A stretch of 39,774 nucleotides of DNA from Pedobacter sp. (lineage in GTDB: Bacteria; Bacteroidota; Bacteroidia; Sphingobacteriales; Sphingobacteriaceae): the NCBI GenBank assembly GCA_014377775.1, contig JACMOW010000113.1:1-39774 (forward strand). Reading direction: 5' to 3'. Positions 6,292 through 20,700 of the stretch are shown here, in pieces. Numbering within the stretch: position 1 is the first letter of the stretch; each line of letters starts with the position of its first letter. Under the pieces are notes generated by a model. The model was not told the origin of the DNA. It was given only the letters and a program-made list of their open reading frames with translations, and made no database searches. The position numbers were made by a program, and so were the translations under genes.

Positions 6292-6381
6292 AGTATATAA
6301 TACTTAGTACCCTGATTAGATTTTTATTGTGTAATGTCTAAGACTTCTGATCTAACTATTATTTACTAAGTACTATATACT
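6292..6381. repeat. Long imperfect inverted repeat in convergent intergenic space
   Basis: Arms 6292-6309 and 6364-6381 are 18 bases each and pair with a single mismatch. A second shorter pair (TTAGAT at 6316-6321 with ATCTAA at 6350-6355) nests inside. The element fills the whole gap between the convergent MFS and phoH genes and touches the phoH stop codon. It could act as a bidirectional transcription end, but it has no clean T-run and its arms are very AT-rich. It may also be a dispersed genomic repeat. Confidence 0.6.
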
Positions 6382-7715
6382 CACAAAAGCTCTGTCGCCA
6401 GATTGGCAAGTTCACTCCTCTCCCCTTTCTGAAGGGTGATGTGCGCATATAGTGGATGATGCTTTGCATTTTCGATTAAATAAGATAATCCGTTACTTTC
6501 TGAATCAAGATAAGGTGTATCAATCTGATAGATATCTCCGGTAAACACAATTTTTGTATGCTCTCCTGCTCTCGAAATAATGGTTTTTATCTCATGAGGA
6601 GTTAAATTCTGTGCCTCATCTACAATGAAAAATATTTTGGTTATGGTACGACCTCTGATGAATGCAAGTGGTGCAATTGCTATTTTTTCAGTTCTGATGA
6701 GTTCATCAATTTTAAATAGCATTTTTTCATCATGAGAGAACTGTTCTTTGATGAATTTTAAGTTATCCCAAATTGGTGCCATGTAAGGATCTACTTTAGC
6801 TTTTACATCACCTGGTAGATAGCCAATATCTTTATTACTAAGAGGAACGATTGGTCTTGTGATGTAAATCTGCCTAAAATTTTTACGTTGTTCTAGTGCA
6901 CTTGCTAATGCCAATAAAGTTTTACCTGTACCTGCGTTTCCTTGTATGGTTACTAATTTTATATCAGGGTTCAATAATGCATCGATTGCGAACGATTGTT
7001 CTGCATTTCTTGGCTCAATATTAAACACAGATTCTTGGTTTATTTTTCTTAGCCGTTTGGTGGTCACATCAAAAAAAGCAATCGAGTTCTTTTTCTTGTG
7101 TTTTAGTTTATAGAAGTGATTTCGATCGGTATAATTTAAATTTATTCCATTTGTTTCGATTGATCCCTCCTTTCTTAACTCGTCTATAAGCTCAGAATTA
7201 CACGAAAAATCTGTTTTTCCAGTATATAATTCATCAACATTTTTTATTTTTCCAGTTTCGTAATCTTCAGCATAGAGATTTAATGATTTCGCCTTTAAAC
7301 GTAAACAAATGTCTTTAGAAACTAATATCACTTTGCTCGCAGGATATTCTTCTTTTAATACCAATGCCGAGTTTAAAATTCGATGATCAAATTTTCCTTT
7401 CCCAAATAATTCTTCTGCATTAATTGCTTTAGGGCTTTCGTTTAAGATAACCTTAATCTTACCCATACTTTTTTTATGGAGCGAGAACCAGTCGTTAACC
7501 AGATTATCCTTAGCAGCTAAATCTATTAGGCGAATGAAACTTCTTGCTTCAAAGTTTCGTGTATCATTTCCACTTTTAAAATTATCCAACTCCTCTAAAA
7601 CCAATACAGGGATGGCAACATAATGCTCCTCAAAATTATTGATGGCATCGTGATCGTACAGAATAACTGAGGTGTCTAGGACAAATATTTTTTTTGGAGA
7701 ATCTTTCTTTAACAT
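6381..7715 (-). CDS. PIN-PhoH family protein (ATPase with RNase-like domain)
   Basis: A 444-residue cytoplasmic protein with an N-terminal PIN domain (residues 10 to about 150) and a C-terminal PhoH ATPase (about 235-444). The PIN part has the acidic residues D14 (FVLDTSVIL), E41/E42 and D135 (SKDICLRL) expected of a Mg-dependent RNase fold. The ATPase part has Walker A GNAGTGKT at 259-266 and Walker B IFFIVDEAQN at 361-370. Proteins with this fusion (PhoH2 type) have been described as ATP-dependent RNA helicases with ribonuclease activity. The in vivo role is not known. It is divergent from the FUSC gene across an unusually long gap. Confidence 0.92.
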   Translation of the reverse strand: MLKKDSPKKIFVLDTSVILYDHDAINNFEEHYVAIPVLVLEELDNFKSGNDTRNFEARSFIRLIDLAAKDNLVNDWFSLHKKSMGKIKVILNESPKAINAEELFGKGKFDHRILNSALVLKEEYPASKVILVSKDICLRLKAKSLNLYAEDYETGKIKNVDELYTGKTDFSCNSELIDELRKEGSIETNGINLNYTDRNHFYKLKHKKKNSIAFFDVTTKRLRKINQESVFNIEPRNAEQSFAIDALLNPDIKLVTIQGNAGTGKTLLALASALEQRKNFRQIYITRPIVPLSNKDIGYLPGDVKAKVDPYMAPIWDNLKFIKEQFSHDEKMLFKIDELIRTEKIAIAPLAFIRGRTITKIFFIVDEAQNLTPHEIKTIISRAGEHTKIVFTGDIYQIDTPYLDSESNGLSYLIENAKHHPLYAHITLQKGERSELANLATELL

Positions 7716-7785
7716 GGCGATTTAAAATTACCATTTAGCATTTAAAGATTATAGTTTATTTGAGAATAAAAAAGGACTTAATAGC

Positions 7786-8250
7786 AAAACGGAGATCCGC
7801 CTCTTTCGATTTGGTTCTCCGCTTTAACCCTTTATCTAACCGTAGTCATCTAAAAGGCATCAAAACTGTTACTTAACCAGTTCGTAGTTATAGTCATCTT
7901 GCGATGTCTACTTCTCGTTTACTTATCATTACTACTTTGCTTTATTCCGTAAAATGCCACAATTCGTAATCATGCTTGATATTAGTTAACAAATAAATAA
8001 TGGATTTTGCAACCCGTTAGTCTTTCTAAACCTATCTGCTCTTGCGAGTGATCGAATTTATATTACCCTATTCTTTTACATGCTATCCACCTTACGGCTT
8101 CTTAATGTAAAACCAATTTTGCATTTTGCAATGCGCATCGGATCTGATTAACTTTTGAACGTTCCCAAAAATTTAGACTTGCGACTTCATTTTTGTTTTG
8201 GATTGTTCTATCAAACTGTCAAAGTACTTCGTTATTGATATGATCTAATG
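7786..8250 (-). ncRNA. Candidate structured non-coding RNA (unnamed; ends uncertain)
   Basis: On the minus strand this stretch is G-rich over C: by hand count about 68 G to 38 C between 7801 and 8100. It can form several hairpins: CGGAGA/TCTCCG (7790-7795 with 7816-7821), AACTG/CAGTT (7864-7882), TTTTACAT/ATGTAAAA (8074-8112) and GCATT/AATGC (8121-8134). The first of these is followed on the minus strand by TTTT, and about 12 bases later by six T, like an intrinsic terminator. I looked for RNase P, tmRNA and SRP signatures and found none. The 5' end near 8250 is only a guess. It could also be a long phoH leader. Confidence 0.35.
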
Positions 8251-8323
8251 TAGTGTCAAAATGGTTACTTGTCAAGAAAAATCGATTTATTTTATTAACA
8301 AGTTTTGAACTTTATTTTGATAC

Positions 8324-8332
8324 TTATCCACA
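8324..8332 (+). promoter_or_regulatory. Perfect DnaA box
   Basis: TTATCCACA matches the DnaA-box consensus TTATNCACA exactly. It lies between an 8-base inverted repeat (TTAACAAG at 8295-8302 and CTTGTTAA at 8387-8394) in AT-rich DNA. A second perfect box in the same orientation lies 89 bases downstream. Confidence 0.5.
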
Positions 8333-8412
8333 TTATAATAGTATTAAATAGACCCCTCTACACCATATAAATGAGTATAGATAAATCTTGTTAACATAAA
8401 GTAATTTTAATG

Positions 8413-8421
8413 TTATCCACA
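8413..8421 (+). promoter_or_regulatory. Perfect DnaA box
   Basis: Second exact TTATCCACA, same orientation as the one at 8324. It is followed by very AT-rich sequence (about 8440-8510) that could unwind easily. Two boxes are few for an origin, so DnaA-dependent control of phoH or the FUSC gene, or DnaA titration, is equally possible. Confidence 0.5.
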
Positions 8422-8534
8422 TTTACATCGCTTTAACCGATTTTCAAAATAAAAAATCTGCTTATTTTTAAAATTCTTCTCAAAAATTATATAATTCTAT
8501 CTTCAAACTTCCTTAAAATTGCAACTCAATACTG

Positions 8535-8542
8535 TAGATTTG
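8535..8542 (+). promoter_or_regulatory. Bacteroidota -7 promoter element, probably leaderless
   Basis: TAGATTTG matches TAnnTTTG exactly and ends 4 bases before the ATG at 8547. This supports that start over the GTG at 8544. No clear -33 element is visible at the expected distance. Confidence 0.5.
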
Positions 8543-8546
8543 TGTG

Positions 8547-10706
8547 ATGCTTAATAGACCTATTCGAAATATTCACGATTTCTTGTTAAGTACCTATTTT
8601 GCTGATGGGTTAAGGATTACTTTTGGTGTATTGTGTCCGTCGTTAATAATGGCACAGTTTGGAATGCTTCAGTATGGTATGACCCTATCATTGGGTGCGT
8701 TATGTATTAGTGTTGTTGACTCACCCGGACCAATTGTTCATCGCAGAAACGCGATGCTAATAACCACTGGCCTTATTGTTATTGTTTCTATTTTGGTAGG
8801 AATTACCAATAAACACGTATATGTTACAGGCCTGCTCTTAGTTGCTTGTAGCTTTGTATTCTCCATGTTTTTTTTATACGGTGCTCGAGCCGCTGCCATT
8901 GGTACTGCAGTTTTACTGATTATGGTACTTAGTATTGATGATGTTAGACCTTGGAAAGAAGTAATTTGGTATGCTATACTAATTTTCTGCGGAAGTATTT
9001 GGTATACTTTACTCAGCTATTTTGTGTATCGAATAAGACCCTATCGATTAGTACAACAGATGTTAAGTGATTATATTCATGAGGTGAGTATTTTTTTAAG
9101 AGCTAAAGCAAAATTTTATCACCAAAATATAGATTATGAAAAAAATTATGCAGAGTTACTGCAACTACAGGTTTTAGTAAACGAAAAGCAAGATGAAGTA
9201 AGAGAGGTATTGTTTAAAACAAGAGAAATTGTAAGCGAATCGACTCCAGAGGGGCGATTTTTATTACTTGTATTTGTAGATATGGCTGATCTTTTCGAAC
9301 AAATTATGTCTACCTACTACAATTATAAACAACTACACCAGCAATTTGATGAAGTTGGAATTTTAGTGCATTACGAAGATGTAATCAATAAGACAGCCGA
9401 TTCGCTCGAAGATATTGCATTTGCACTAAAAACGGGAGATACGCCTAATTTATCCATCAAATTAACAGAAGATATAGAAAAATTAAAGCAAGAAATTTTA
9501 GTCTTAGAAAACGACAAAATAAATAAAGATTATAATACTTTGGGCTTAATTGCCCTAAAAAATATTGAAGTTAACATTGAAAATATTTTAGCAAGGGTTA
9601 GAACTATTACCCGTTATTTTAACGAAAATGAGAAGAAAAATCTTAAAAAAAACGATATCGATGTTAATAAATTTGTAACTAGGCAAAATTTTGATGTTAA
9701 ACTATTTCGTGAGAATTTAACTTTTAATTCTTCCACTTTTAGGCATTCCTTACGTGTAGCTATTGTGATGCTAATTGGTTTTGTAGTGGCAAAGAGCTTT
9801 GATTTTGCCCACAGTTATTGGATATTACTTACCATTTTGGTAATTTCTAAACCTGGTTATACCTTAACCAAACAAAGAAATTATCAGCGATTAATTGGGA
9901 CTATAGTTGGTGCTTTTGTTGGCATGGGTATTTTAGTATATGTTAAAGATAAGAATGCACTATTTGTAATTTTGTTAATCTGCATGATTGGTAGCTATAG
10001 CTTTCAGCGAAAGAACTATGTAGTTAGCGTGTTGTTTATGACGCCATATATATTGGTCTTATTCGACTTTTTAGGAATGGGAAGCCTCTCTATCGCTCGT
10101 GAGCGTATTTATGATACGCTAATTGGATCAGGGATTGCTGTAATGGCTAGCTACTCCTTATTTCCAAATTGGGAACATGAGAAACTAAAGGAGGCCATGG
10201 TTAATATTATAAAGGCCAATATGAATTACTTCGAACAAGTTACGCTTCTATACTTTGAACAACAGAATAGTTTAACTAAATATAAAGTAGCGCGTAAAGA
10301 GGTATATGTGAACACAGCCAACCTCGCCTCGTTATTTCAACGGATGTTTTCTGAGCCAAAAAGTAAGCAATTATACATTAAAGAATTGCATCAATTTACG
10401 GTACTTAATCATTTACTTTCGTCGTACATAGCCACACTTTCTCTTTTTTATAGGGAGCATGATTATGTGTATACTAATTTTGAAGAGTTAAAACCGGTAT
10501 CTACTAATACTATTTATCTGCTATCACAATCGTTCGAAAATTTAACCCTACAAAAAGAGGATTTAAGTAATGTTCCTTTAATTCGACGAAAAAATATCGG
10601 CGAATTGGATGAAGCCAATGAAAACATGATAATCTCCGAGCAATTTGAGCTAATTCAAAAAGTAGCCTATGACATTTTTAAGTTGACGGAGAAAATAAAG
10701 ATTTAG
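8547..10706 (+). CDS. FUSC-family (YccS/YhfK-like) inner-membrane protein
   Basis: A 719-residue membrane protein with the two-part layout of the FUSC/aromatic acid exporter group. An N-terminal block of about six membrane helices (roughly residues 15-165) is followed by a long cytoplasmic helical section (about 165-390). A second helix block (about 395-540, including WILLTILVISKPGYTLTKQR, the typical FUSC helix region) is followed by a soluble C-terminal domain. Relatives are proposed efflux permeases, but the substrate of the YccS type is not established. It is transcribed alone. Its stop is only 9 bases from the stop of the convergent starch operon. Confidence 0.87.
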   Translation: MLNRPIRNIHDFLLSTYFADGLRITFGVLCPSLIMAQFGMLQYGMTLSLGALCISVVDSPGPIVHRRNAMLITTGLIVIVSILVGITNKHVYVTGLLLVACSFVFSMFFLYGARAAAIGTAVLLIMVLSIDDVRPWKEVIWYAILIFCGSIWYTLLSYFVYRIRPYRLVQQMLSDYIHEVSIFLRAKAKFYHQNIDYEKNYAELLQLQVLVNEKQDEVREVLFKTREIVSESTPEGRFLLLVFVDMADLFEQIMSTYYNYKQLHQQFDEVGILVHYEDVINKTADSLEDIAFALKTGDTPNLSIKLTEDIEKLKQEILVLENDKINKDYNTLGLIALKNIEVNIENILARVRTITRYFNENEKKNLKKNDIDVNKFVTRQNFDVKLFRENLTFNSSTFRHSLRVAIVMLIGFVVAKSFDFAHSYWILLTILVISKPGYTLTKQRNYQRLIGTIVGAFVGMGILVYVKDKNALFVILLICMIGSYSFQRKNYVVSVLFMTPYILVLFDFLGMGSLSIARERIYDTLIGSGIAVMASYSLFPNWEHEKLKEAMVNIIKANMNYFEQVTLLYFEQQNSLTKYKVARKEVYVNTANLASLFQRMFSEPKSKQLYIKELHQFTVLNHLLSSYIATLSLFYREHDYVYTNFEELKPVSTNTIYLLSQSFENLTLQKEDLSNVPLIRRKNIGELDEANENMIISEQFELIQKVAYDIFKLTEKIKI

Positions 10707-10715
10707 AAAATATTT

Positions 10716-12605
10716 CTATTTTAATGCAGTCTTACTAAAAATATGGTATTCGCCAGGTACTAAAGTTGCGGAGTAAGTTGCGTTCGATAAATTAATACTA
10801 TTACCAACCGCATCAACCCAAACCCCAGCAGATCCAAAATCTATATTAGAAGTTTGATTAATTACATCAAAATTTCCCACTACAACAACGATATTTGTAC
10901 CTTCCGTTAGCTTAATATACTTAACACCGCCAGTTAAATTATAGTTAACATTTGCAGTGTTAAAAATGGAATTACTCCTTTTTAATTTAATAAATCTTGC
11001 ATAAGCATCATATAATGCTTTACGGTTTATATCCGTGTAATAATCCCATCTAATTGGTTTATCACCAGTTCGCTGATTATAATCTATACTAATATCATAA
11101 CCTAATTCTCCAAATTGCCATATCATTTTTGGGCCAGGTATACTAAATAAAAATGCAGCAGCAAGCTCTTGTCGTTTCAAAGTGGTGGGAAGATTTCCTT
11201 TAATAACGTAGCTTCCTGAAAAGTTTCCATAAGTAATATTTTTATAGTTTAAGCGCTCTTCATCATGACTTTCTCCAAAACTTACTAAGTTTTCTGATTT
11301 CCCAAAACCGTGTTTAGTAGAAAATCCCCACGAAAAATCAGAATTTGAAAGCCAGCCCATTGTGGCCTCATTCATATTGTAGTTTAAATTTGCCCAAAGC
11401 ATCATACCCTCATCTGCTAAAATTTTCTCTTCGGCCGCATCTGCAAAATGCTCTAAAATCACATAAAAATTAGTCGGATCTATACTTTTAATATAATTAT
11501 TATACTCCTTCCAAATGGCTATTCTACTTGCATCTAATGCACTAAAACTAGCATCGTTGTTTGAAGCATTTTGTGTAAATCCTTTAGATAGATCAAAACG
11601 AAAACCATCAATTTTATAGTTTTGCATCCAAAATTTAATTACATTCTTAGCAAAATATTTTGTTGCCGCACTTTCATGGTTAAAATCGTAACCTACATTG
11701 TAAGGATGTTTAGCATCTGTGTTAAACCAGGGACTATTTGAAGTTGGTTTAGTCCCATCAAAATACATCTGTACCATTGGCGATTGTCCGAATGAATGAT
11801 TTAAAACCATATCTAAAATAACTGCAATACCTTTGCCGTGGCATTCGTCGATAAAATTCTGCAGCGCTGTTTTAGTTCCATAATATTTATCTGGCGCAAA
11901 ATAAAAGGACGGATTATACCCCCAACTTAAATTACCTTCAAATTCATTTACGGGCATCAGTTCGATGGCATTTATTCCAAGACCAATTAAATAATCTAAT
12001 TTTTGCAAGGTTGAAGCATAATTATGTTCTATTGTAAAATCTCTAATCAACAACTCATAAATAATCAGACTATTTTTTTCAGGCCTTAAAAAAGAATTAT
12101 TTTTCCAGGTGTAGGTTGGTTGGTTTGCTTGCATTACACTTACAATACCAGTCGTTTTACCCGTGGGGTAACTCATCAGGTTTTGATAAGTACCAGCTGA
12201 AATATATTTATCATTCGCTTCATCTAATATTTTTTCGCAATATGGATCAGCTACTTTTAAATTTCCATTTACTAAAAACTGATAGCTATATTCCGTATTG
12301 GGATTTAAATTATCAATTTGTATCCACCAAGTTTCACCATTATTTGCTTTTTTCATTGGCGAGGCGGTGAACGACCAATTATTAAAATCGCCAATTACAG
12401 CAACTGATGTTTTTGCTGGGGCGAACAGCGTAATAATCGCTGATGTACCATTGTTAATGAACACTACACCATCTTTAGCCGCTGCTGGTAAATCTAATGT
12501 TGGTTTGGGAGGATCAATCGGGTTCTCTACTGCGAGACTTGAAGTTTTTTTACAAGCGCCGCTTACAATTATAAAAAAGAATAAGCTGTATAATATTTTT
12601 TTCAT
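10716..12605 (-). CDS. Lipoprotein alpha-amylase (GH13) with N-terminal beta-sandwich domain
   Basis: A 629-residue exported lipoprotein. The lipobox is VSGAC, with C18 as the lipidated residue. An N-terminal CBM48/E-set-like beta-sandwich (about 55-140, with VAVIGDFNNWSFTASPM) precedes a GH13 barrel (about 170-570). The four GH13 regions are intact: DMVLNH (265-270), GFRFDLSKG with nucleophile D338, VILEHF with acid/base E385, and SHDEER with D448. It hydrolyses or transfers alpha-1,4-glucan and by its anchor may sit in the outer membrane, as SusG does, though the inner leaflet is possible. It is the last gene of the starch operon. Exact specificity (amylase, pullulanase or branching-like) cannot be read from the sequence. 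Confidence 0.9.
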   Translation of the reverse strand: MKKILYSLFFFIIVSGACKKTSSLAVENPIDPPKPTLDLPAAAKDGVVFINNGTSAIITLFAPAKTSVAVIGDFNNWSFTASPMKKANNGETWWIQIDNLNPNTEYSYQFLVNGNLKVADPYCEKILDEANDKYISAGTYQNLMSYPTGKTTGIVSVMQANQPTYTWKNNSFLRPEKNSLIIYELLIRDFTIEHNYASTLQKLDYLIGLGINAIELMPVNEFEGNLSWGYNPSFYFAPDKYYGTKTALQNFIDECHGKGIAVILDMVLNHSFGQSPMVQMYFDGTKPTSNSPWFNTDAKHPYNVGYDFNHESAATKYFAKNVIKFWMQNYKIDGFRFDLSKGFTQNASNNDASFSALDASRIAIWKEYNNYIKSIDPTNFYVILEHFADAAEEKILADEGMMLWANLNYNMNEATMGWLSNSDFSWGFSTKHGFGKSENLVSFGESHDEERLNYKNITYGNFSGSYVIKGNLPTTLKRQELAAAFLFSIPGPKMIWQFGELGYDISIDYNQRTGDKPIRWDYYTDINRKALYDAYARFIKLKRSNSIFNTANVNYNLTGGVKYIKLTEGTNIVVVVGNFDVINQTSNIDFGSAGVWVDAVGNSINLSNATYSATLVPGEYHIFSKTALK

Positions 12606-12624
12606 GATGGGATGATTGATGTAT

Positions 12625-14001
12625 TTAAACTGATCTGTTTTCTTCTACCTCTAACTTAGCTGTTAAAACATCATTTATTTTATTTGGTTCTTTGATTAAT
12701 AAATAGCAAATAATTGCTGCTAAAACCATTAGTCCACCTCCTAGTTGAACGGCTAAAAGACGATCGTTATTAAGCACATTTCGCATTAACCAACCAAAAC
12801 CTAATGATGCTATAATTTCGGGTAAAACAATAAAAAAGTTAAAAATACCCATGTAAATACCAATTTTATCTTTCGGTAATGAACCGCTTAGCATGGCATA
12901 AGGCATTGAAAGTATACTTGCCCAAGCTATTCCAACCCCAGTCATACATAAAAACAACATATTTTTATCGTGTACCCAAGCTACACTAATTAAACCCATT
13001 GCTCCGCAAAATAGGCAGATTGCATGTGTATTTTTCCTGCCTAGTGTATCGGCAATTTTTGGTAAAACAAGTGCGAATAGAAAAGTAATTACACTATAGT
13101 AAGCTAGGGTTAAACTTCCAAAATCTGCTCCTTGTGCATATATAGGATCGCTAGCATCTTTGCCTCCAAAAACATTTATAGCCACTGCTGTAGTGTAATA
13201 GAACCACATTAGAAACAAACCTGGCCAAGTAAAGAATTGAACTAACGAAACAATTTTCATTCTTTTTGGCATATTGGTTAAAGCATGTATAATCTCTTTC
13301 ACTCCCCCACCAAAACCCTTATTACTTTCTAAAACCTTTTCCTTAAAGTTAACATCAGATGGTGGATACTCTTTTGTTGTTAAAACGGTATATAAAACTG
13401 CTGCAAAAAAGAAAAATGCACCAATATAAAAGGAGAATTTAACATTTTCAGGAATGTTACCCATTTCTGCCGTGTTGGCTAAGTGGAAAACATTTTTCAT
13501 CAACCATGGAAGAGAGGAAGCTATACTCCCACCTAAACCAATCATTAAGCTCTGCATAATAAATCCCCTATTTACTTGGCTATCGGGTAATTTATCTGTC
13601 ACAAATGCTCTGAAAGGCTCCATCGCAATGTTTCCAAAAACATCCAAAATCCACAATAATCCAGCGGCCATCCATAAAGCGCTACTATGAGGCATAAATA
13701 GTAGGGCAATACTACTTATAATTGCACCAATCATAAAGTATGGTCTTCTTCTACCCCATCTTGGATGCCATGTACGATCACTTAAATAGCCAACAATTGG
13801 TTGAACTAATAGTCCTGTTAATGGTGCTGCTAAAAATAATAAAGGTACTTGATCTGCATTAGCCCCTAAATTTTCATAAATGCGGCCCATGTTTGCGCGT
13901 TGTAAATCCCAACCAAATTGTATACCAAAAAAGCCTACACTCATATTGATAATTTGTACGAGCGACAATTTGGGGTTTTCAGCGATTAATTTCATGTTCA
14001 T
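12625..14001 (-). CDS. SLC45/GPH-type sugar MFS transporter (probable maltose/maltodextrin importer)
   Basis: A 458-residue inner-membrane protein with about 12 helices. The loop RWGRRRP (residues 81-87) after GYLSDRTWHP and the N-terminal QFGWDLQRANM segment are typical of the sucrose/maltose SLC45-like group. Its place between GH13 and GH65 genes points to import of maltose or short maltodextrins from the periplasm into the cytoplasm, where the phosphorylase acts. It sits 5 bases after the amylase stop and 19 bases before the lipoprotein amylase. An ATG two codons further in (13995) is an alternative start. The substrate is inferred from context. Confidence 0.9.
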   Translation of the reverse strand: MNMKLIAENPKLSLVQIINMSVGFFGIQFGWDLQRANMGRIYENLGANADQVPLLFLAAPLTGLLVQPIVGYLSDRTWHPRWGRRRPYFMIGAIISSIALLFMPHSSALWMAAGLLWILDVFGNIAMEPFRAFVTDKLPDSQVNRGFIMQSLMIGLGGSIASSLPWLMKNVFHLANTAEMGNIPENVKFSFYIGAFFFFAAVLYTVLTTKEYPPSDVNFKEKVLESNKGFGGGVKEIIHALTNMPKRMKIVSLVQFFTWPGLFLMWFYYTTAVAINVFGGKDASDPIYAQGADFGSLTLAYYSVITFLFALVLPKIADTLGRKNTHAICLFCGAMGLISVAWVHDKNMLFLCMTGVGIAWASILSMPYAMLSGSLPKDKIGIYMGIFNFFIVLPEIIASLGFGWLMRNVLNNDRLLAVQLGGGLMVLAAIICYLLIKEPNKINDVLTAKLEVEENRSV

Positions 14002-14006
14002 TTGGT

Positions 14007-15788
14007 TTAAAATTGAATGATTTGTGCAGAAGAAGGCAAAATTTTCACAGGTATCTTATTCTTAGTGGTTACTGTTATTTCCCTATTCGTTAATAGTTCC
14101 TTAATCAAAACAGACGTATTCAGATCTAGCATATTTTCTGGAATGGTAAATTCCGTATTTAGTGTTTTTTCTCTATCAAAATTGGCAACAATAAGTATTC
14201 TTTGATTTTTAGTGTAGCGAATAAAGGCATACATTCTGTTGTTCATTTTCGCATTTGTTAATTCTGTAATTTCACCATTAACAATCGCATCATTTTGCGT
14301 AGTAACTTGAAGTAGCTTTCGATAAAAATTTCTGGTACTTTTTTGATTTTCAGTTAATTTTCCACCGTCAAATAATCCATTATTCATCCATTTCTGATGA
14401 TTTGGTACACCCCAATATTCAAATATCGTAGTTCTTCCGTTTTGGTGATCATCTCCAGTAAAACCTTCTGAAGCTCCAGCTGGTTCGCCATTTTCTTGAC
14501 CAAAATAAAGCATAAGTGGCCCAGTTCCTAAAGCTGCAGAAATAACCATTCCCGGAAAACTAAACTCTGCTTTACCTGCAAATGATTTTGAAGCTATTCT
14601 TTCTTCGTCATGGTTTTCTAGAAATCTAACCATTTGATTGCCAAATGCTGCACTTTCCACTTTCCATACGTTGGCGATATCATTAACATTAGCCTTTGGC
14701 TCATTTTTGATTAATTTTTTCAAGGCATCATATAAACCTACCTTATCATATAAATAATCAAATTTACCTTGAGTTAAGAACTGTTGATATACCTTTGGAT
14801 TGTAAGCTTCCGCGATAAAAATTAAACCAGGCTTAACCACTTTTACCTGTGGAATAACCCATTCCCAAAAATCAACTGGTACCATTTCCGCAACATCACA
14901 TCTAAAGCCATCTACTCCCATTTTTGTCCAGTAGATTAATATGTCCCGCATTTTAGTCCAAACTGGCGGAATGGGGTTAAAATGAGTTATTTCTTTTCCA
15001 TTGCTATAGTCGATACCATAATTTAATTTTACAGTTTCATACCAATCATTAAGTGAAGGAGATGCAGAAAAAATGTTATTTCCGGTAGCCTTTGCAGGGT
15101 ATTCAGTAAATTTTCCGTTCATCTGCTTTTTTAGTGGACTATTATATTCATTTGTGTTTACAGGAACCTCAAAAGGCTGATTTGGAATATAATAAAAATC
15201 ATTTTTTGTGCTAAATGCAATGCTTTTATCGTCATTTACACCAAAATCAGTTACCTTTTTTGGTTTTACATTTGAGAAATAGCTTCTAGCTACATGATTT
15301 GGAACAAAATCTATTAAAACTTTAAGATTTTTATCATGTGTACGTTTAATTAAAGCCTCAAATTCGGCTAATCTGTTTGAAACATTTACGGCTAAATCAG
15401 GATCTACATCATAATAATCTCTTATTGCATAGGGAGAACCAGCTCTACCTTTAACAACATCTGCGTCATCTGGTTTGATGCCATATTTTGAATAATCAGT
15501 TAAACTAGCATGTGCTAAAACTCCAGTATACCAGATATAATTTACCTGTAATTCCTTTAAGCCATCAAGTGCAAGATTGGTAATATCATTGAATTTACCG
15601 CTTCCGTTTTCCACTATCGTACCATAGGGAATATTTACAGCTTTTTTATTACCAAAATAACGTGGTAATAACTGGTAAATAATAATTTTTTTACCTTCTA
15701 CCTTCACCTCTTTTTGTTGTCCAGAAGCTGAGATTCCGAAGCAAATAGTTATAAAAATACTGCATATAAATGGCTTAAGTTTATTCAT
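14007..15788 (-). CDS. Secreted alpha-amylase family enzyme (GH13)
   Basis: A 593-residue exported enzyme. A signal peptide (about residues 1-24, ending ISASGQ) predicts the periplasm. Numbered from the ATG at 15788, the GH13 motifs are DFVPNH (about 160-165), GFRCDVAEM with nucleophile D298, FIAEAY with acid/base E327, and FLENHDEER with D394. There is no obvious N-terminal accessory domain, unlike the other two GH13 enzymes of the operon. The longer GTG start at 15797 would overlap the GH65 stop by four bases. I prefer the ATG, 5 bases after that stop. It probably trims maltodextrins; the exact product is unknown. Confidence 0.9.
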   Translation of the reverse strand: MNKLKPFICSIFITICFGISASGQQKEVKVEGKKIIIYQLLPRYFGNKKAVNIPYGTIVENGSGKFNDITNLALDGLKELQVNYIWYTGVLAHASLTDYSKYGIKPDDADVVKGRAGSPYAIRDYYDVDPDLAVNVSNRLAEFEALIKRTHDKNLKVLIDFVPNHVARSYFSNVKPKKVTDFGVNDDKSIAFSTKNDFYYIPNQPFEVPVNTNEYNSPLKKQMNGKFTEYPAKATGNNIFSASPSLNDWYETVKLNYGIDYSNGKEITHFNPIPPVWTKMRDILIYWTKMGVDGFRCDVAEMVPVDFWEWVIPQVKVVKPGLIFIAEAYNPKVYQQFLTQGKFDYLYDKVGLYDALKKLIKNEPKANVNDIANVWKVESAAFGNQMVRFLENHDEERIASKSFAGKAEFSFPGMVISAALGTGPLMLYFGQENGEPAGASEGFTGDDHQNGRTTIFEYWGVPNHQKWMNNGLFDGGKLTENQKSTRNFYRKLLQVTTQNDAIVNGEITELTNAKMNNRMYAFIRYTKNQRILIVANFDREKTLNTEFTIPENMLDLNTSVLIKELLTNREITVTTKNKIPVKILPSSAQIIQF

Positions 15789-15793
15789 TTTTA

Positions 15794-18112
15794 TCACACT
15801 AGTTCTGTGTTTTTTATCTCGATTTCCTCATTTCCTGTGATTTTAAAGTTTTGATTGGCTAAACAAATTTCTAAATCAATTAATGTACTGTTATTTATCG
15901 TCATGCCGGCTTCTGTAATTTTTATTTTTAAAACAGCGCCCCTAAATCCAATTGTAAAAGAAAATGATTTCCATTTTGCCGGTAAAAAAGGGTTAAATAC
16001 AAGTCTATCATTTTTAACTCTCATTCCTGCAAACCCCTCTATCATGCTCATCCAAGTACCCGCCATTGAGGTAATATGTAAGCCATCTTCCGTATCGTTG
16101 TTATAATCATCTAAATCTAACCGCGCCGTACGCAAATAAAACTCATACGCTTTAACTTCATCATTTAGTTTTGCTGCCAAAATACTGTGTACACAGGGCG
16201 ATAATGAGCTTTCGTGTACGGTACGGGGCTCATAAAAATCAAAATTTCGTTTTAATGTGGCCAAATCATAATCTTCCTCAAAGAAATATAATCCTTGCAA
16301 TACATCTGCTTGCTTGATAAAACAAGAACGAAGAATACGATCCCAACTCCATTTTTGGTTAATTGGCCTTTCACTAGGCGATAAATCTTTAACTAAAATT
16401 TGTTCTTTATCTAAATACCCATCTTGTTGTAAGAAAATCCCTTTCTCCTCATCGGTTGGATAGTACATTTTATCAACAATAGCAGCCCAATCTACTAATT
16501 CATGTGCTTTAAAGTTTAGTTTAGCTAAAAGTGAATTCAATTTTTTTTGTTCATTGGTACGAAGAATTTCAATTACTTTTGCGGTATATTTTAAACACCA
16601 TGTTGCTAAAATATTGGTGTACCAATTGTTATTTACATTGTTTTCGTATTCATTTGGACCAGTAACGCCGAGCATCACATATTTTTGTTTTTCATTGCTC
16701 CAATTCACACGTTGTTTCCAAAATCGAGCAATTGCCACCAATACTTCTAAGCCATAATCACCTAAATAATCTGTGTCGCCAGTATAACGAACGTAATTAT
16801 AAATGGCAAAGGCAATAGCTCCATTTCGGTGAATTTCTTCAAAAGTAATTTCCCATTCATTATGGCACTCTTCACCATTCATGGTTACCATCGGAAATAA
16901 TGCTGCACCATCTTTGAAACCTAGCTTATGGGCATTTTCAATGGCTTTATCAAGTTGTTTATATCGATAAATTAATAAATTTTTGCTCACCTCTTGTGGG
17001 GCGGTTGCCAAATAAAATGGAACACAATAGGCTTCAGTATCCCAATAGGTTGAACCACCATATTTTTCACCAGTAAAACCCTTTGGCCCAATATTTAGTC
17101 GATCATCTTTACCGGTGTACGTTTGAAATAATTGATAAATGTTGAATCGGATAGCTTGCTGAGCCGAAACATCTCCTTCAATTATGATGTCACTATGCTC
17201 CCATTTTTTTGCCCATTCTTGTTTTTGTTCATTTAATAAAGTGCTAAAACCCTTTTTAAAGGCATTAGCAATTGTACTTTTAGTTTGTGATAAGAGCGTG
17301 GTTTTAGGATGATTTTGCGAAGAAAGATTGGCAACAATTTTTATTAATGTTATTTCTTCATTTGCTTGGATATCAATTTGAAATAATTGACCAACGAATT
17401 TTTCTCTACGAATTTCTTGTGGTTTAACCTGAAGTAGTTTTCCATTGCAATGAATAGATACCGCACTTCCAGTGCATACCTCAAAATTAGTTTTTTTAGT
17501 CCTTAAAGTAAGATAAGCTTCATGTTCAACAATATCATCATTTACAAATTCCCAAAATTTCTCATCATAATTACTATCTTGGTTTTTAACATCACCATCA
17601 ATAAACGGCATTATATGTAATTTGGCGCTAAAGTTTAATGGCAAAATTTGATAGCGAATAGCGGCAATTTCATCGTCAGCAATACTGCAGAAGCGAGTAG
17701 CCATTATTTTTACTTTTTTTCCACTTTTTAATTTAGCAATGAAACTGCGTTCTAAGTAGCCTTCACCCATATTTAAAATACGGCTAAATTCGCTAACTTC
17801 AGCAGTCGCTAAATCTAAAATCTCATCGTCAAATTTAACTTCAATCCCAATCCAATTTGCTGCATTTAATACCTTTGCAAAATATTCTGGATATCCATTT
17901 TTCCACCACCCAACCCTTGTTTTATCCGGATAATAAACACCAGCAATGTAATTGCCAGGTAAAGTTTCGCCAGAGTAAGTCTCTTCAAAGTTTGCGCGTT
18001 GTCCCATTCGTCCATTGCCCAAACTAAATATACTTTCTGAAATTTTATTTAAGTGTGGATCAAAGCCCTCTTCTATGATATTCCACTCTTCTGCTTTAAT
18101 ATAATTCTTCAT
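15794..18112 (-). CDS. GH65 disaccharide phosphorylase, probable maltose phosphorylase
   Basis: A 772-residue cytoplasmic enzyme, full length for GH65, without signal peptide. It has the N-terminal beta-sandwich and the (alpha/alpha)6 barrel with GFTGEKYGGSTYWDTE (345-360). The catalytic acid is E488 in GPNEYENNVNNNWYTN. A later HESSLSP motif matches the GH65 phosphate-binding loop. Family members split maltose, trehalose, kojibiose or similar with phosphate, giving glucose and beta-glucose-1-phosphate. The adjacent pgmB and the starch enzymes make maltose the likeliest substrate. It lies 31 bases downstream of pgmB. Assignment to GH65 is secure; the substrate is inferred. Confidence 0.92.
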   Translation of the reverse strand: MKNYIKAEEWNIIEEGFDPHLNKISESIFSLGNGRMGQRANFEETYSGETLPGNYIAGVYYPDKTRVGWWKNGYPEYFAKVLNAANWIGIEVKFDDEILDLATAEVSEFSRILNMGEGYLERSFIAKLKSGKKVKIMATRFCSIADDEIAAIRYQILPLNFSAKLHIMPFIDGDVKNQDSNYDEKFWEFVNDDIVEHEAYLTLRTKKTNFEVCTGSAVSIHCNGKLLQVKPQEIRREKFVGQLFQIDIQANEEITLIKIVANLSSQNHPKTTLLSQTKSTIANAFKKGFSTLLNEQKQEWAKKWEHSDIIIEGDVSAQQAIRFNIYQLFQTYTGKDDRLNIGPKGFTGEKYGGSTYWDTEAYCVPFYLATAPQEVSKNLLIYRYKQLDKAIENAHKLGFKDGAALFPMVTMNGEECHNEWEITFEEIHRNGAIAFAIYNYVRYTGDTDYLGDYGLEVLVAIARFWKQRVNWSNEKQKYVMLGVTGPNEYENNVNNNWYTNILATWCLKYTAKVIEILRTNEQKKLNSLLAKLNFKAHELVDWAAIVDKMYYPTDEEKGIFLQQDGYLDKEQILVKDLSPSERPINQKWSWDRILRSCFIKQADVLQGLYFFEEDYDLATLKRNFDFYEPRTVHESSLSPCVHSILAAKLNDEVKAYEFYLRTARLDLDDYNNDTEDGLHITSMAGTWMSMIEGFAGMRVKNDRLVFNPFLPAKWKSFSFTIGFRGAVLKIKITEAGMTINNSTLIDLEICLANQNFKITGNEEIEIKNTELV

Positions 18113-18143
18113 TTTATATACGTTTAGCGCATAGCATATTATA

Positions 18144-18815
18144 CTATAACCTTTCTAAATCTTCAATTGTTAATTTGTCTAAGCCGCTCACCACTAGGTC
18201 AGCATGAACTAAAATATTTTTTTTACCAATTCCAATCGCTTTCATCCCCCCTGCTTTTGCAGCTTCAATACCAGCAACAGCATCTTCAAAAACTACACAC
18301 TCTTTTGCAGAAACGTTCAAAAGTTCTGCTCCCTTTATAAATACTTCAGGATCTGGTTTTGATTTATTAACACTATTTCCATCTACTATTTCATGAAAAA
18401 AATGCGTCAAATTAGTTCTTTCCAATATCAAAGAAGAATTTTTACTGGCAGAACCTAATGCGAGTTTATAACCTGCTTTAGTAATTGCAGTTAAAAACTC
18501 TACAGTTCCAGGCAACACTTCATTGGGAGTCATTTTTGAGATCATTTCTACATACCAACTATTTTTTAGCGCAGCCAATTCCATTTTTTCACGTTCCGTT
18601 TTAGTGATGTTTCCCCAAGCTAAAATTTTAGTTAAGCTCTCCATTCTGCTCACTCCTTTTAGCTGCTCATTTTGCTCTTCCGCAAAATCAAAATTCATTG
18701 TATTTGCCAAACGTTTCCAAGCTTGGTAATGGTAAATTGCAGTGTCTACTAAAACACCGTCTAAATCAAATAGACAGGCTTTAATGTTTGATGTTATATT
18801 TCTTAGGTGATACAT
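18144..18815 (-). CDS. pgmB: Beta-phosphoglucomutase
   Basis: A 223-residue HAD-superfamily enzyme that converts beta-glucose-1-phosphate to glucose-6-phosphate. The nucleophile and acid/base are D17 and D19 in CLFDLDGVLVDTA. The cap segment contains YHYQAWKRLA, and motifs III/IV appear as KSKPDPEVF and VVFEDAVAGI. The pairing with a GH65 phosphorylase is the classical arrangement, because this mutase handles the beta anomer made by that enzyme. It is the second gene of the operon, 13 bases after the SusA-like gene. The N-terminus has about ten residues more than many PgmB proteins, but no better ATG precedes the HAD motif. Confidence 0.95.
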   Translation of the reverse strand: MYHLRNITSNIKACLFDLDGVLVDTAIYHYQAWKRLANTMNFDFAEEQNEQLKGVSRMESLTKILAWGNITKTEREKMELAALKNSWYVEMISKMTPNEVLPGTVEFLTAITKAGYKLALGSASKNSSLILERTNLTHFFHEIVDGNSVNKSKPDPEVFIKGAELLNVSAKECVVFEDAVAGIEAAKAGGMKAIGIGKKNILVHADLVVSGLDKLTIEDLERL

Positions 18816-18828
18816 TTCTATTTATAAT

Positions 18829-20691
18829 CTATTTTAATTCGAATATTAAAGTAGTTTGTGCGGGTATAATTATCGTTTTAAGTACTAAAAGCTGATTTGA
18901 AACAATGTCTAATCCCGATTTTGCAGTTAAAATTCTTTCTTGATATCGATCTGTTGAAATAGATTTTTCAGTGGTATTGCTATTCATTATTACCATTACT
19001 GTTTTGGTATTATTGTATCTGAAATAGACATATATACCATCTTCAGGAATAAATTGCATCATTTTTCCAGTTTGTAATACTGGATTATTTTTTCTGTAAT
19101 TGGCAATTGTTTTTAAATAATTGAAAGCTTCATTTTCTTTGTTTGTTCTGCCTTGGGCGGTAAACTTATTTTTCTTGTCTTCTTCCCATCCTCCTGGAAA
19201 ATCACTACGTACTAAACCATCCGGACTAGCGAAATTTTTCATTAAAATTTCGGTGCCATAGTATAGTTGTGGAATTCCTCTAGTAGTTAGTAACCATGCT
19301 AAGCCCGATTTATACTTATTAAAATCTTCGCCTACAACAGAATAAAATCTACTTAAGTCATGATTATCAAGAAAAACAACATTTCTGGTTGGATCCTCGT
19401 AAAGGAAATCGTTTGCAAATGTGTTATATAGCTTTACCACACCATCCATCCATCCAAATTTGCCATTTAAAGCTTCATTTATCCCCCAAAGTGCCTGAAA
19501 ATCCGTTACACCTTGTAGTTTGGTATCAAAACCTTGATTAATTTTATTACCCGTTGTAAAATAAGCTTGATTTGGCACACCATGTACCCAAGTTTCCCCA
19601 AAAAATGTAATCTTGGGATATTCTGCTGTGATCTCCTTTGCCCATTCAGCCATATATTTTTGGTCGTTGTAGGCATATGTGTCTAAACGAAAACCATCCA
19701 AGCCTGCGTATTCCACCCACCAAATATGGCTTTGAGTGATATAATTTTTAACGTATGAATTATGATGATTCATGTCTGGCATGTGCTTATCAAACCACCC
19801 ATTTTCCATTAATTCTTTATCTGCTTTTGCAACATAAGGATCCATGTGCACTTGTTCCCTGTAAGTAGTTTTGGTGAATTTTGGCCATTGATTAACCCAG
19901 TCTTTCATAGGCATATCTTTAATGGTAAAATGTTCTGTACCGATATGATTATGAACCAAGTCCTTAATTACTTTCATGCCACGTTTGTGCGATTCAATTA
20001 CTAATTTTTTATAATCTTCATTTGTACCAAACCTGCGGTCAATTTTATAATTTTCGGTATTGGCATAACCGTGATAGGATGTTTTTGGTTGATCATTTTC
20101 AAGAACAGGATTAAGCCAAAGTGTTGTAATCCCCAAATCTTTTAAGTAGTCAAGGTGATTAATAATTCCTTGAATATCGCCTCCATGACGGTAATACATA
20201 CTGTCTCTATTGAGTGCCATTTCTTGCATTCCTTCAATCACATCATTGTGCTTATCGCCATTCGAAAATCGATCAGGCATGATGAGATAAATTAGGTCTG
20301 AGTTATCAACCCCTTGATGGAGATTGAGGCTTTTATCTTTTTGTTTTAATTCGTAAGTATAAATTAATTTTTTCCCATTCTGATTAAATTCAATTGGAAA
20401 TTTGCCTGCTTTGGCGGTTGATGAAATTTCAACATCTAGAAAAAGATAGTTAGGGTTGTCAACTTTATTTACTTTAACCAATTTTACACCAGGATAAATT
20501 AAAAGAACAGTAGTTGATGCAATATTAGCTCCATGAACTAGCAATTGAAGTTTAGGTTGCTTCATTCCAGTAAACCAGAACATGGGCTCAATACGTTCTA
20601 ATTGTACCTTATTAGTTTGTGCTTTTAAAATAATTGGCGATAAAATAAATAGCCATAAAATCCAATGTTTTAAGAAGTTAAAAATTTTCAT
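18829..20691 (-). CDS. susA: SusA-like periplasmic neopullulanase/cyclomaltodextrinase (GH13)
   Basis: A 620-residue exported GH13 enzyme. The signal peptide (about 1-25) ends in LKAQ. An N-terminal beta-sandwich (about 27-115, PMFWFTGMKQPKLQLLVHG) is the Cyc-maltodextrin N domain typical of SusA. The catalytic barrel carries DLVHNH (about 244-249), GFRLDTYAYND with nucleophile D337, FFGETW with acid/base E366, and FLDNHDLSRF with D445. The C-terminal beta domain ends near residue 620, matching the family length. It cuts maltodextrins or cyclodextrins in the periplasm. It is the first gene of the minus-strand operon and lies downstream of the 32-base palindrome. An ATG three codons upstream (20700) is also possible. 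The name is by similarity. Confidence 0.9.
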   Translation of the reverse strand: MKIFNFLKHWILWLFILSPIILKAQTNKVQLERIEPMFWFTGMKQPKLQLLVHGANIASTTVLLIYPGVKLVKVNKVDNPNYLFLDVEISSTAKAGKFPIEFNQNGKKLIYTYELKQKDKSLNLHQGVDNSDLIYLIMPDRFSNGDKHNDVIEGMQEMALNRDSMYYRHGGDIQGIINHLDYLKDLGITTLWLNPVLENDQPKTSYHGYANTENYKIDRRFGTNEDYKKLVIESHKRGMKVIKDLVHNHIGTEHFTIKDMPMKDWVNQWPKFTKTTYREQVHMDPYVAKADKELMENGWFDKHMPDMNHHNSYVKNYITQSHIWWVEYAGLDGFRLDTYAYNDQKYMAEWAKEITAEYPKITFFGETWVHGVPNQAYFTTGNKINQGFDTKLQGVTDFQALWGINEALNGKFGWMDGVVKLYNTFANDFLYEDPTRNVVFLDNHDLSRFYSVVGEDFNKYKSGLAWLLTTRGIPQLYYGTEILMKNFASPDGLVRSDFPGGWEEDKKNKFTAQGRTNKENEAFNYLKTIANYRKNNPVLQTGKMMQFIPEDGIYVYFRYNNTKTVMVIMNSNTTEKSISTDRYQERILTAKSGLDIVSNQLLVLKTIIIPAQTTLIFELK

Positions 20692-20700
20692 GTTTAACAT

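Follow-up and report, generated by a model that had tools for sequence, protein, structure and literature searches.

A one-sided array of DnaA-type boxes beside the promoter of a candidate structured RNA in Pedobacter

Analysis of a 39,774-nucleotide stretch of Pedobacter sp. DNA, hereafter the window, revealed an array of DnaA-type boxes, all on one strand, next to promoter-like elements of a predicted structured non-coding RNA of about 455 nt that is absent from current family listings. We consider it probable that the replication initiator DnaA binds this array, which has the genus-level consensus TTATN(A/C)ACA, about 50-175 bp upstream of the RNA promoter, where it would act as a transcription regulator. 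The amount of RNA would then track either the state of replication or how much active DnaA is present, making the RNA gene a candidate output of the replication initiator. For the broader proposal, that a structured RNA family around Pedobacter is under direct DnaA control through a dedicated array and couples replication to RNA-based regulation, we judge the case to be evenly balanced. Other outcomes of the analysis were the conservation of the array among relatives and a likely Pedobacter oriC between nadA and nadB.

DnaA-type boxes upstream of the RNA promoter

The source genome is a 3.17 Mb assembly in 339 contigs, 88% complete, in which the window contig is G000:C248. Boxes and RNA lie in the intergene at 7716-8543, flanked by a PIN-PhoH gene and a FUSC gene. 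The features are as follows:

6381..7715, minus strand: PhoH-family ATPase with a PIN domain (Pfam), the 3' neighbour of the RNA
7786..8240, minus strand: structured non-coding RNA, about 455 nt, with matches in relatives and compensatory changes; predicted ends
7786..7825, minus strand: terminator-like hairpin GCGGAGA...TCTCCG-TTTT, with a conserved AATCGAAAGA in the loop
7786..7883, minus strand: RNA 3' domain, matched by covariance model R1 at E 1.4e-12, the window sequence being among the 38 from which R1 was built
8247..8252, minus strand: -10-like TACATT, recognized by eye and separated from the -35 by 17 bp; many relatives have a TAAATTAG-like element
8270..8275, minus strand: -35-like TTGACA, recognized by eye; TTGACA or near variants in many relatives
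8292..8300, plus strand: array box 1, TTATTAACA; PWM score 13.2; about 52 bp upstream of the predicted RNA start
8324..8332, plus strand: array box 2, exact TTATCCACA; the first box of the original prediction
8388..8396, plus strand: array box 3, TTGTTAACA; includes the right-hand arm of the inverted repeat reported originally
8413..8421, plus strand: array box 4, exact TTATCCACA; the second box of the original prediction
8544..10706, plus strand: FUSC-like membrane protein (YccS type; Pfam), divergent from the RNA

The original prediction had described two perfect DnaA boxes in the same orientation, the first framed by an inverted repeat. Both boxes were confirmed at 8324-8332 and 8413-8421 and are the only exact copies of TTATCCACA in the window. 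The repeat arms TTAACAAG and CTTGTTAA are present, but they are pieces of two further boxes, TTATTAACA (8292) and TTGTTAACA (8388), and what was reported as an inverted repeat consists of direct repeats whose core is close to palindromic. The four same-strand boxes fall within 130 bp and form a DnaA-box cluster.

Conservation of the position and strand of the array is, on these comparisons, the main evidence against a chance occurrence. Among 118 loci, 98 were usable (the other 20 lacked either the RNA by pattern or 250 bp of upstream sequence), and removal of those at least 85% alike left 58 non-redundant loci, the window's own included, which share descent, such that all counts come from related loci. 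In the 58 loci TTATNNACA occurs 166 times on the array strand versus once on the opposite strand; shuffled sequences gave means of 4.4 forward and 2.7 reverse, and maxima of 10 and 8. With offsets measured from the RNA anchor, at 8219 in the window, TTRTNNACW sites recur on one strand at about 73, 85, 106, 169 and 194 bp. The slot of box 1 (offset 70-75, about 73) is filled in 45 of the 58 loci, that of box 2 (102-108, about 106) in 47, that of box 3 (166-172, about 169) in 33 and that of box 4 (190-197, about 194) in 31, and the slot at about 85, which is empty in the window, in 15. The commonest steps from box to box are 33, 25 and 62-64 bp. Arrays usually contain three to five boxes, with a box-poor interval of about 63 bp, while three of the 58 loci have one box and ten have two. 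Recurrent spacing of DnaA boxes relative to a promoter, here one whose elements were recognized by eye, is the arrangement expected of a DnaA-regulated promoter.

The array consensus is TTATN(A/C)ACA. All 166 array TTATNNACA sites have A or C at position 6, where background TTATNNACA sites have any base; among 181 array sites picked by offset and a loose match, A stands there in 163. The information in the offset-picked sites resides in TTAT, position 6 and ACA, with little in the flanks, and CC in the middle was found in only five of the 166 TTATNNACA sites. At least three same-strand sites in 150 bp occur at 44 of the 58 RNA loci. Across 139 sampled stretches totalling 2.25 Mb, four clusters had at least three sites per 150 bp; one is the array of G009, and the other three reach that number through an overlapping palindromic pair scored on both strands, which leaves the G009 array as the sole same-strand cluster of that density in the sample.

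Taken alone, a pair of exact TTATCCACA copies within 100 bp is mildly unusual, about 0.07 pairs less than 100 bp apart being expected in this genome by simple arithmetic. An exact pair with a gap of 70-95 bp was found in this genome and in 3 of 40 others, elsewhere in the latter. The exact pair is missing at the corresponding loci of relatives because the sites diverge within the consensus. Lack of conservation of the two boxes in relatives had been named at the outset as grounds for abandoning the idea, and the sites are in fact retained there as TTATN(A/C)ACA; searches for exact TTATCCACA overlook most sites at array loci.

The RNA and its association with the array

On the minus strand, TTGACA-N17-TACATT is followed by TATCAAnnACGAAGTACTTTGA, a G+C hairpin and a run of T's; the 5' end of the RNA was placed from the promoter and the 3' end from the terminator. 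No long open reading frame was found in the RNA region, and in an alignment with P. insulae and G016 the intergene to the left of the boxes was better conserved than the DNA flanking the boxes. A search of the whole window against 4227 Rfam families returned no match at gathering score; a search with a 1-kb stretch gave one meaningless match (E 1.5) to an insect-virus element on the other strand, and four relatives gave two matches only, with E values of 0.41 and 0.83. The RNA region matches 26 of 59 genomes, the window's own included, although the match in G053 is a 32-base, chance-type one. Together these features mark the region as a predicted structured non-coding RNA, not listed before, that occurs in Pedobacter and relatives and is presumably transcribed.

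The fold is conserved by covariation. In an alignment of 24 relatives (A3), 96.2% of cells pair and 29 of the 65 predicted pairs change on both sides, figures that lean toward the fold in that it was predicted from the same alignment. None of 500 shuffles reached the pairing and covariation values of this alignment, and sliding the partners by one column lowered pairing to 52-54%. A3 comprises 24 of 51 sequences, and because it holds the shorter RNA type (about 340-380 nt) only, the full-fold count applies to relatives and does not include the longer form present in the window. For the 3' domain, an alignment of 38 of the 51 sequences (A2), including the window's own, showed compensatory changes in 11 of 22 pairs, and R1 is the covariance model of this domain built from 38 sequences.

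With R1, 21 of 28 Pedobacter genomes proved to have the RNA, always as a single copy, and the other 7 gave no match. Across the order it matched 153 of 300 genomes in 8 of 17 genera, the window's own included, with E values outside Pedobacter running from about 1e-10 up to the cut-off of 0.01; the weakest matches outside the genus are doubtful. Some genomes of other genera carry two or three R1 copies, and copies within a few kb of each other were seen at G085:C10:806 kb, G090:C2:759-764 kb, G225:C21:698 kb and G327:C1:3.40 Mb. L156 and L157 are two RNA copies on two contigs of one Sphingobacteriaceae MAG. The RNA 5' pattern had no match in viral contigs. Two or three full-strength DnaA domains are encoded in each of G006, G013 and G019, where R1 found no RNA, and one in each of G000, G008, G009, G016 and G022, where the RNA is present; the pattern of multiple DnaA and absent RNA may reflect a single event, the genomes being related.

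DnaA control of the divergent phoH and FUSC genes had been suggested originally. A DnaA-titration or DnaA-regulatory site stays the preferred class of interpretation, but the likeliest target of regulation is the RNA, the array and RNA persisting while phoH and FUSC vary. The neighbour count used 58 of 72 loci. R1 detected the RNA in 7 of the 14 excluded genome_contigs loci, once as a partial copy; among the other 7, four have a pattern match less than 300 bp from the locus end, and the remaining three (Prevotella, Psychrobacter and Bacteroides fragilis) resemble chance hits of the pattern. In 44 of the 58 loci a PhoH gene follows the RNA within 1.5 kb, and in 43 a divergent FUSC lies within that distance. 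Both were present at 36 loci, PhoH alone at 5, FUSC alone at 5 and neither at 2, with 10 unjudgeable on one side, and the 1.5-kb limit accounts for some of these absences.

We also examined FUSC loci directly, using 24 of 30 after excluding fragments and distant paralogues. An RNA 5' anchor lay within 600 bp at 11 of the 24, each with three to five boxes. Among the 13 without a nearby anchor, 11 had no boxes, L024 had one and L028 had two; L028 belongs to genome G003, in which R1 places the RNA beside FUSC. This distribution argues that the array belongs to the RNA and not to FUSC, and the regulated unit is most likely the non-coding RNA gene. Regulation of FUSC as the main purpose was rejected on the absence of the array from FUSC loci without a nearby RNA. 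The RNA as a phoH leader was also rejected, given its own terminator-like hairpin and the absence of PhoH within 1.5 kb downstream at 8 judgeable loci, in 3 of which PhoH lies at 1.5-1.7 kb.

At datA-like loci a box cluster bent by IHF stimulates hydrolysis of DnaA-ATP. The Pedobacter array might, comparably to E. coli datA, chiefly titrate or inactivate DnaA, with the RNA promoter simply adjacent to it or acting as the switch by which it is cleared. The usual three to five boxes with their box-poor gap would suit such a role. DnaA-box clusters outside oriC, such as datA and DARS, are a known kind. E. coli datA lies downstream of a tRNA-Gly operon and likewise combines DnaA boxes with a transcription unit for stable RNA (PMC10950094). 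The array resembles datA, DARS1 and DARS2 of E. coli in being a non-coding DnaA-box cluster outside oriC; unlike datA, the Pedobacter boxes precede the promoter of a long structured RNA and keep recurring distances to it. The distance from box to promoter is kept across 58 loci, and FUSC loci without a nearby RNA have no array. Promoter control fits better than titration because register should not matter for titration, and we regard a chiefly titrating or inactivating role as unlikely.

The relation of the array and RNA to other published systems is partial. CcnA of Caulobacter crescentus is a 182-nt RNA inside the origin with a cell-cycle role, presumably activated by CtrA (PMC8959179). Like the Pedobacter RNA, it is a non-coding RNA gene beside replication-control sites, but the Pedobacter RNA is about 455 nt, lies away from the origin and has DnaA-type boxes. 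Weinberg 2010 (PMC2864571) lists structured RNA candidates from Pedobacter and Bacteroidetes, Pedo-repair RNA (RF01715) among them; unlike the RF-numbered motifs in that list, which are Rfam families, the window has no Rfam family match. Among the matches listed in searches of the open-access literature, none described DnaA boxes arrayed at recurrent spacing relative to the promoter of a long structured RNA, and none concerned this Pedobacter RNA or DnaA sites in Pedobacter. The likely target of the array is a new RNA family. Knowledge of DnaA-binding sites beyond the origin is, as far as we are aware, sparse in Bacteroidota. An antisense RNA to a replication gene region is reportedly present in Salmonella Typhi (PMC3634043).

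DnaA as the likely binder

Promoters of dnaA carry DnaA boxes that serve autoregulation, and we looked for the array motif there. The set comprised 8 loci, of which that of G009 begins at the gene, and it excluded the other dnaA copies of G006, G013 and G019; for L048 and L050 the position of the start codon is uncertain. All seven readable cases had 2-4 TTRTN(A/C)ACA sites upstream of dnaA, in mixed orientation. The box near -175 is TTATCCACA in P. insulae (G022) and G008, and TTATCAACA in the window's own genome and G016, a C/A interchange that is also that of the array sites. The array thus resembles dnaA promoters in its motif and in lying close to a promoter, as in the seven of seven Pedobacter dnaA upstream regions read; it differs in its target, a non-coding RNA, and in usually having three to five same-strand boxes, as opposed to two to four of mixed orientation.

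The motif was also found in the nadA-nadB intergenes of G008, G009, G043 and P. insulae (384-445 bp), which contain 3-4 strict PWM sites each, in comparison to 0, 1 or 2 sites in each of 76 AT-rich control windows. This intergene (L269:3730-4174 and its counterparts in G008, G009 and G043) is AT-rich and lies about 6 kb from parS with mnmG nearby, and gene order around nadA-nadB, mnmG and parS is the same in the four genomes. Gene names from Pfam were assigned on the P. insulae copies, the other three genomes having been matched by synteny and length, and the FAD oxidoreductase beside nadA was taken for nadB. It seems likely that this intergene near mnmG and parS is the true Pedobacter oriC, a prediction in four genomes for an intergene chosen partly for its boxes.

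The GGRDH region of DnaA contacts the box, and the Pedobacter DnaA is canonical, with the domain IV motif GGRDHSTV. DnaA is the likeliest binder of the array because the motif is common to dnaA promoters and the likely oriC and the DnaA protein is ordinary. The textbook DnaA box has C at position 6, and the preference of the array for A there, unlike the usual TTATNCACA, could instead point to another regulator with a DnaA-box-like motif, for example an activator of the RNA promoter, which same-strand sites beside the -35 would suit. We find this improbable, since the motif and its A/C interchange occur in dnaA promoters, and the motif in the likely oriC, where DnaA is expected.

Origin and terminus

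The boxes had initially been considered a possible part of the replication origin, an idea that rested on AT-rich DNA and two perfect boxes. It might draw further support from the sole same-strand cluster of at least three sites in our sample being of the array type, and from the lack of a dense cluster near parS: at least three TTATNNACA in 250 bp were found nowhere in the 100 kb around parS of G008, G009 and G043 or in 60 kb of G022. We nonetheless consider it very improbable that the locus is oriC, as parS, the skew switch, mnmG and rRNA direction all place the origin elsewhere. parS is an origin-side marker, and parS and the RNA lie at 4.10 and 1.69 Mb in G008, 4.92 and 2.30 Mb in G009, and 5.39 and 2.53 Mb in G043, a separation of 45-49% of the chromosome in these three complete genomes. 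In G009 and G043 GC skew switches from negative to positive no more than about 5 kb from parS; local skew is noisy in G008 and G022, and the rRNA genes of G008, G009 and G043 are directed toward the RNA locus. The single parS match of the window's own genome is on contig C310, separate from the RNA contig; G016, one of nine genomes searched, had no match to the parS pattern. Around the RNA locus of G008, G016 and G043 skew runs from positive to negative, the opposite of an origin. A skew minimum with boxes elsewhere in the genome had been put forward as the result that would overturn an origin, and this is largely what relatives have, but with no dense box cluster near parS. The comparative data from G008, G009 and G043 contradict a replication origin at the RNA-array locus.

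Immediately 3' of box 2, TTATAATAGTATTAA (window 8333-8352) looks like DnaA-trios, but by eye it is unconserved in the two nearest relatives, P. insulae (G022) and G016, which makes a BUS/DnaA-trio reading of this AT-rich stretch doubtful. Same-strand triples with gaps of at most 30 bp were found in one of 41 genomes, away from the RNA locus, and the gaps of the array are longer.

That the two boxes are a functionless coincidence, for which one could cite the 49 exact TTATCCACA copies in the genome versus 31 of a reversed control pattern and the chance-level count of copies with at most one mismatch in the window (11 observed versus 13.5 expected), is refuted by the finding that position, strand and consensus are all conserved across the 58 loci, and has a negligible probability.

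A terminus location was also considered. In G008, G016 and G043 the RNA locus lies between sampled positive and negative skew, with skew in G008 positive again at 1.80 Mb, and in G009 the switch is some 50-100 kb from the locus. Seven of 53 neighbouring sampled pairs in G008, G009 and G043 change from positive to negative, two of which bracket the RNA locus. In 10 further complete Pedobacter genomes, over about 100 kb on either side, such a change occurred at the RNA locus in only one, and the nine without it led us to reject terminus location as a general property of the RNA; a position near the terminus may apply to some species. Searches for dif, with patterns based on E. coli and B. subtilis sites, gave no consistent site.

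Elsewhere in the window, the minus strand at 10716-20700 encodes alpha-amylase-type genes, an MFS transporter and a cyclomaltodextrinase (Pfam; the open reading frames at 15794-18112 and 18144-18815 were outside the search), probably a cluster for the use of starch or maltodextrin.
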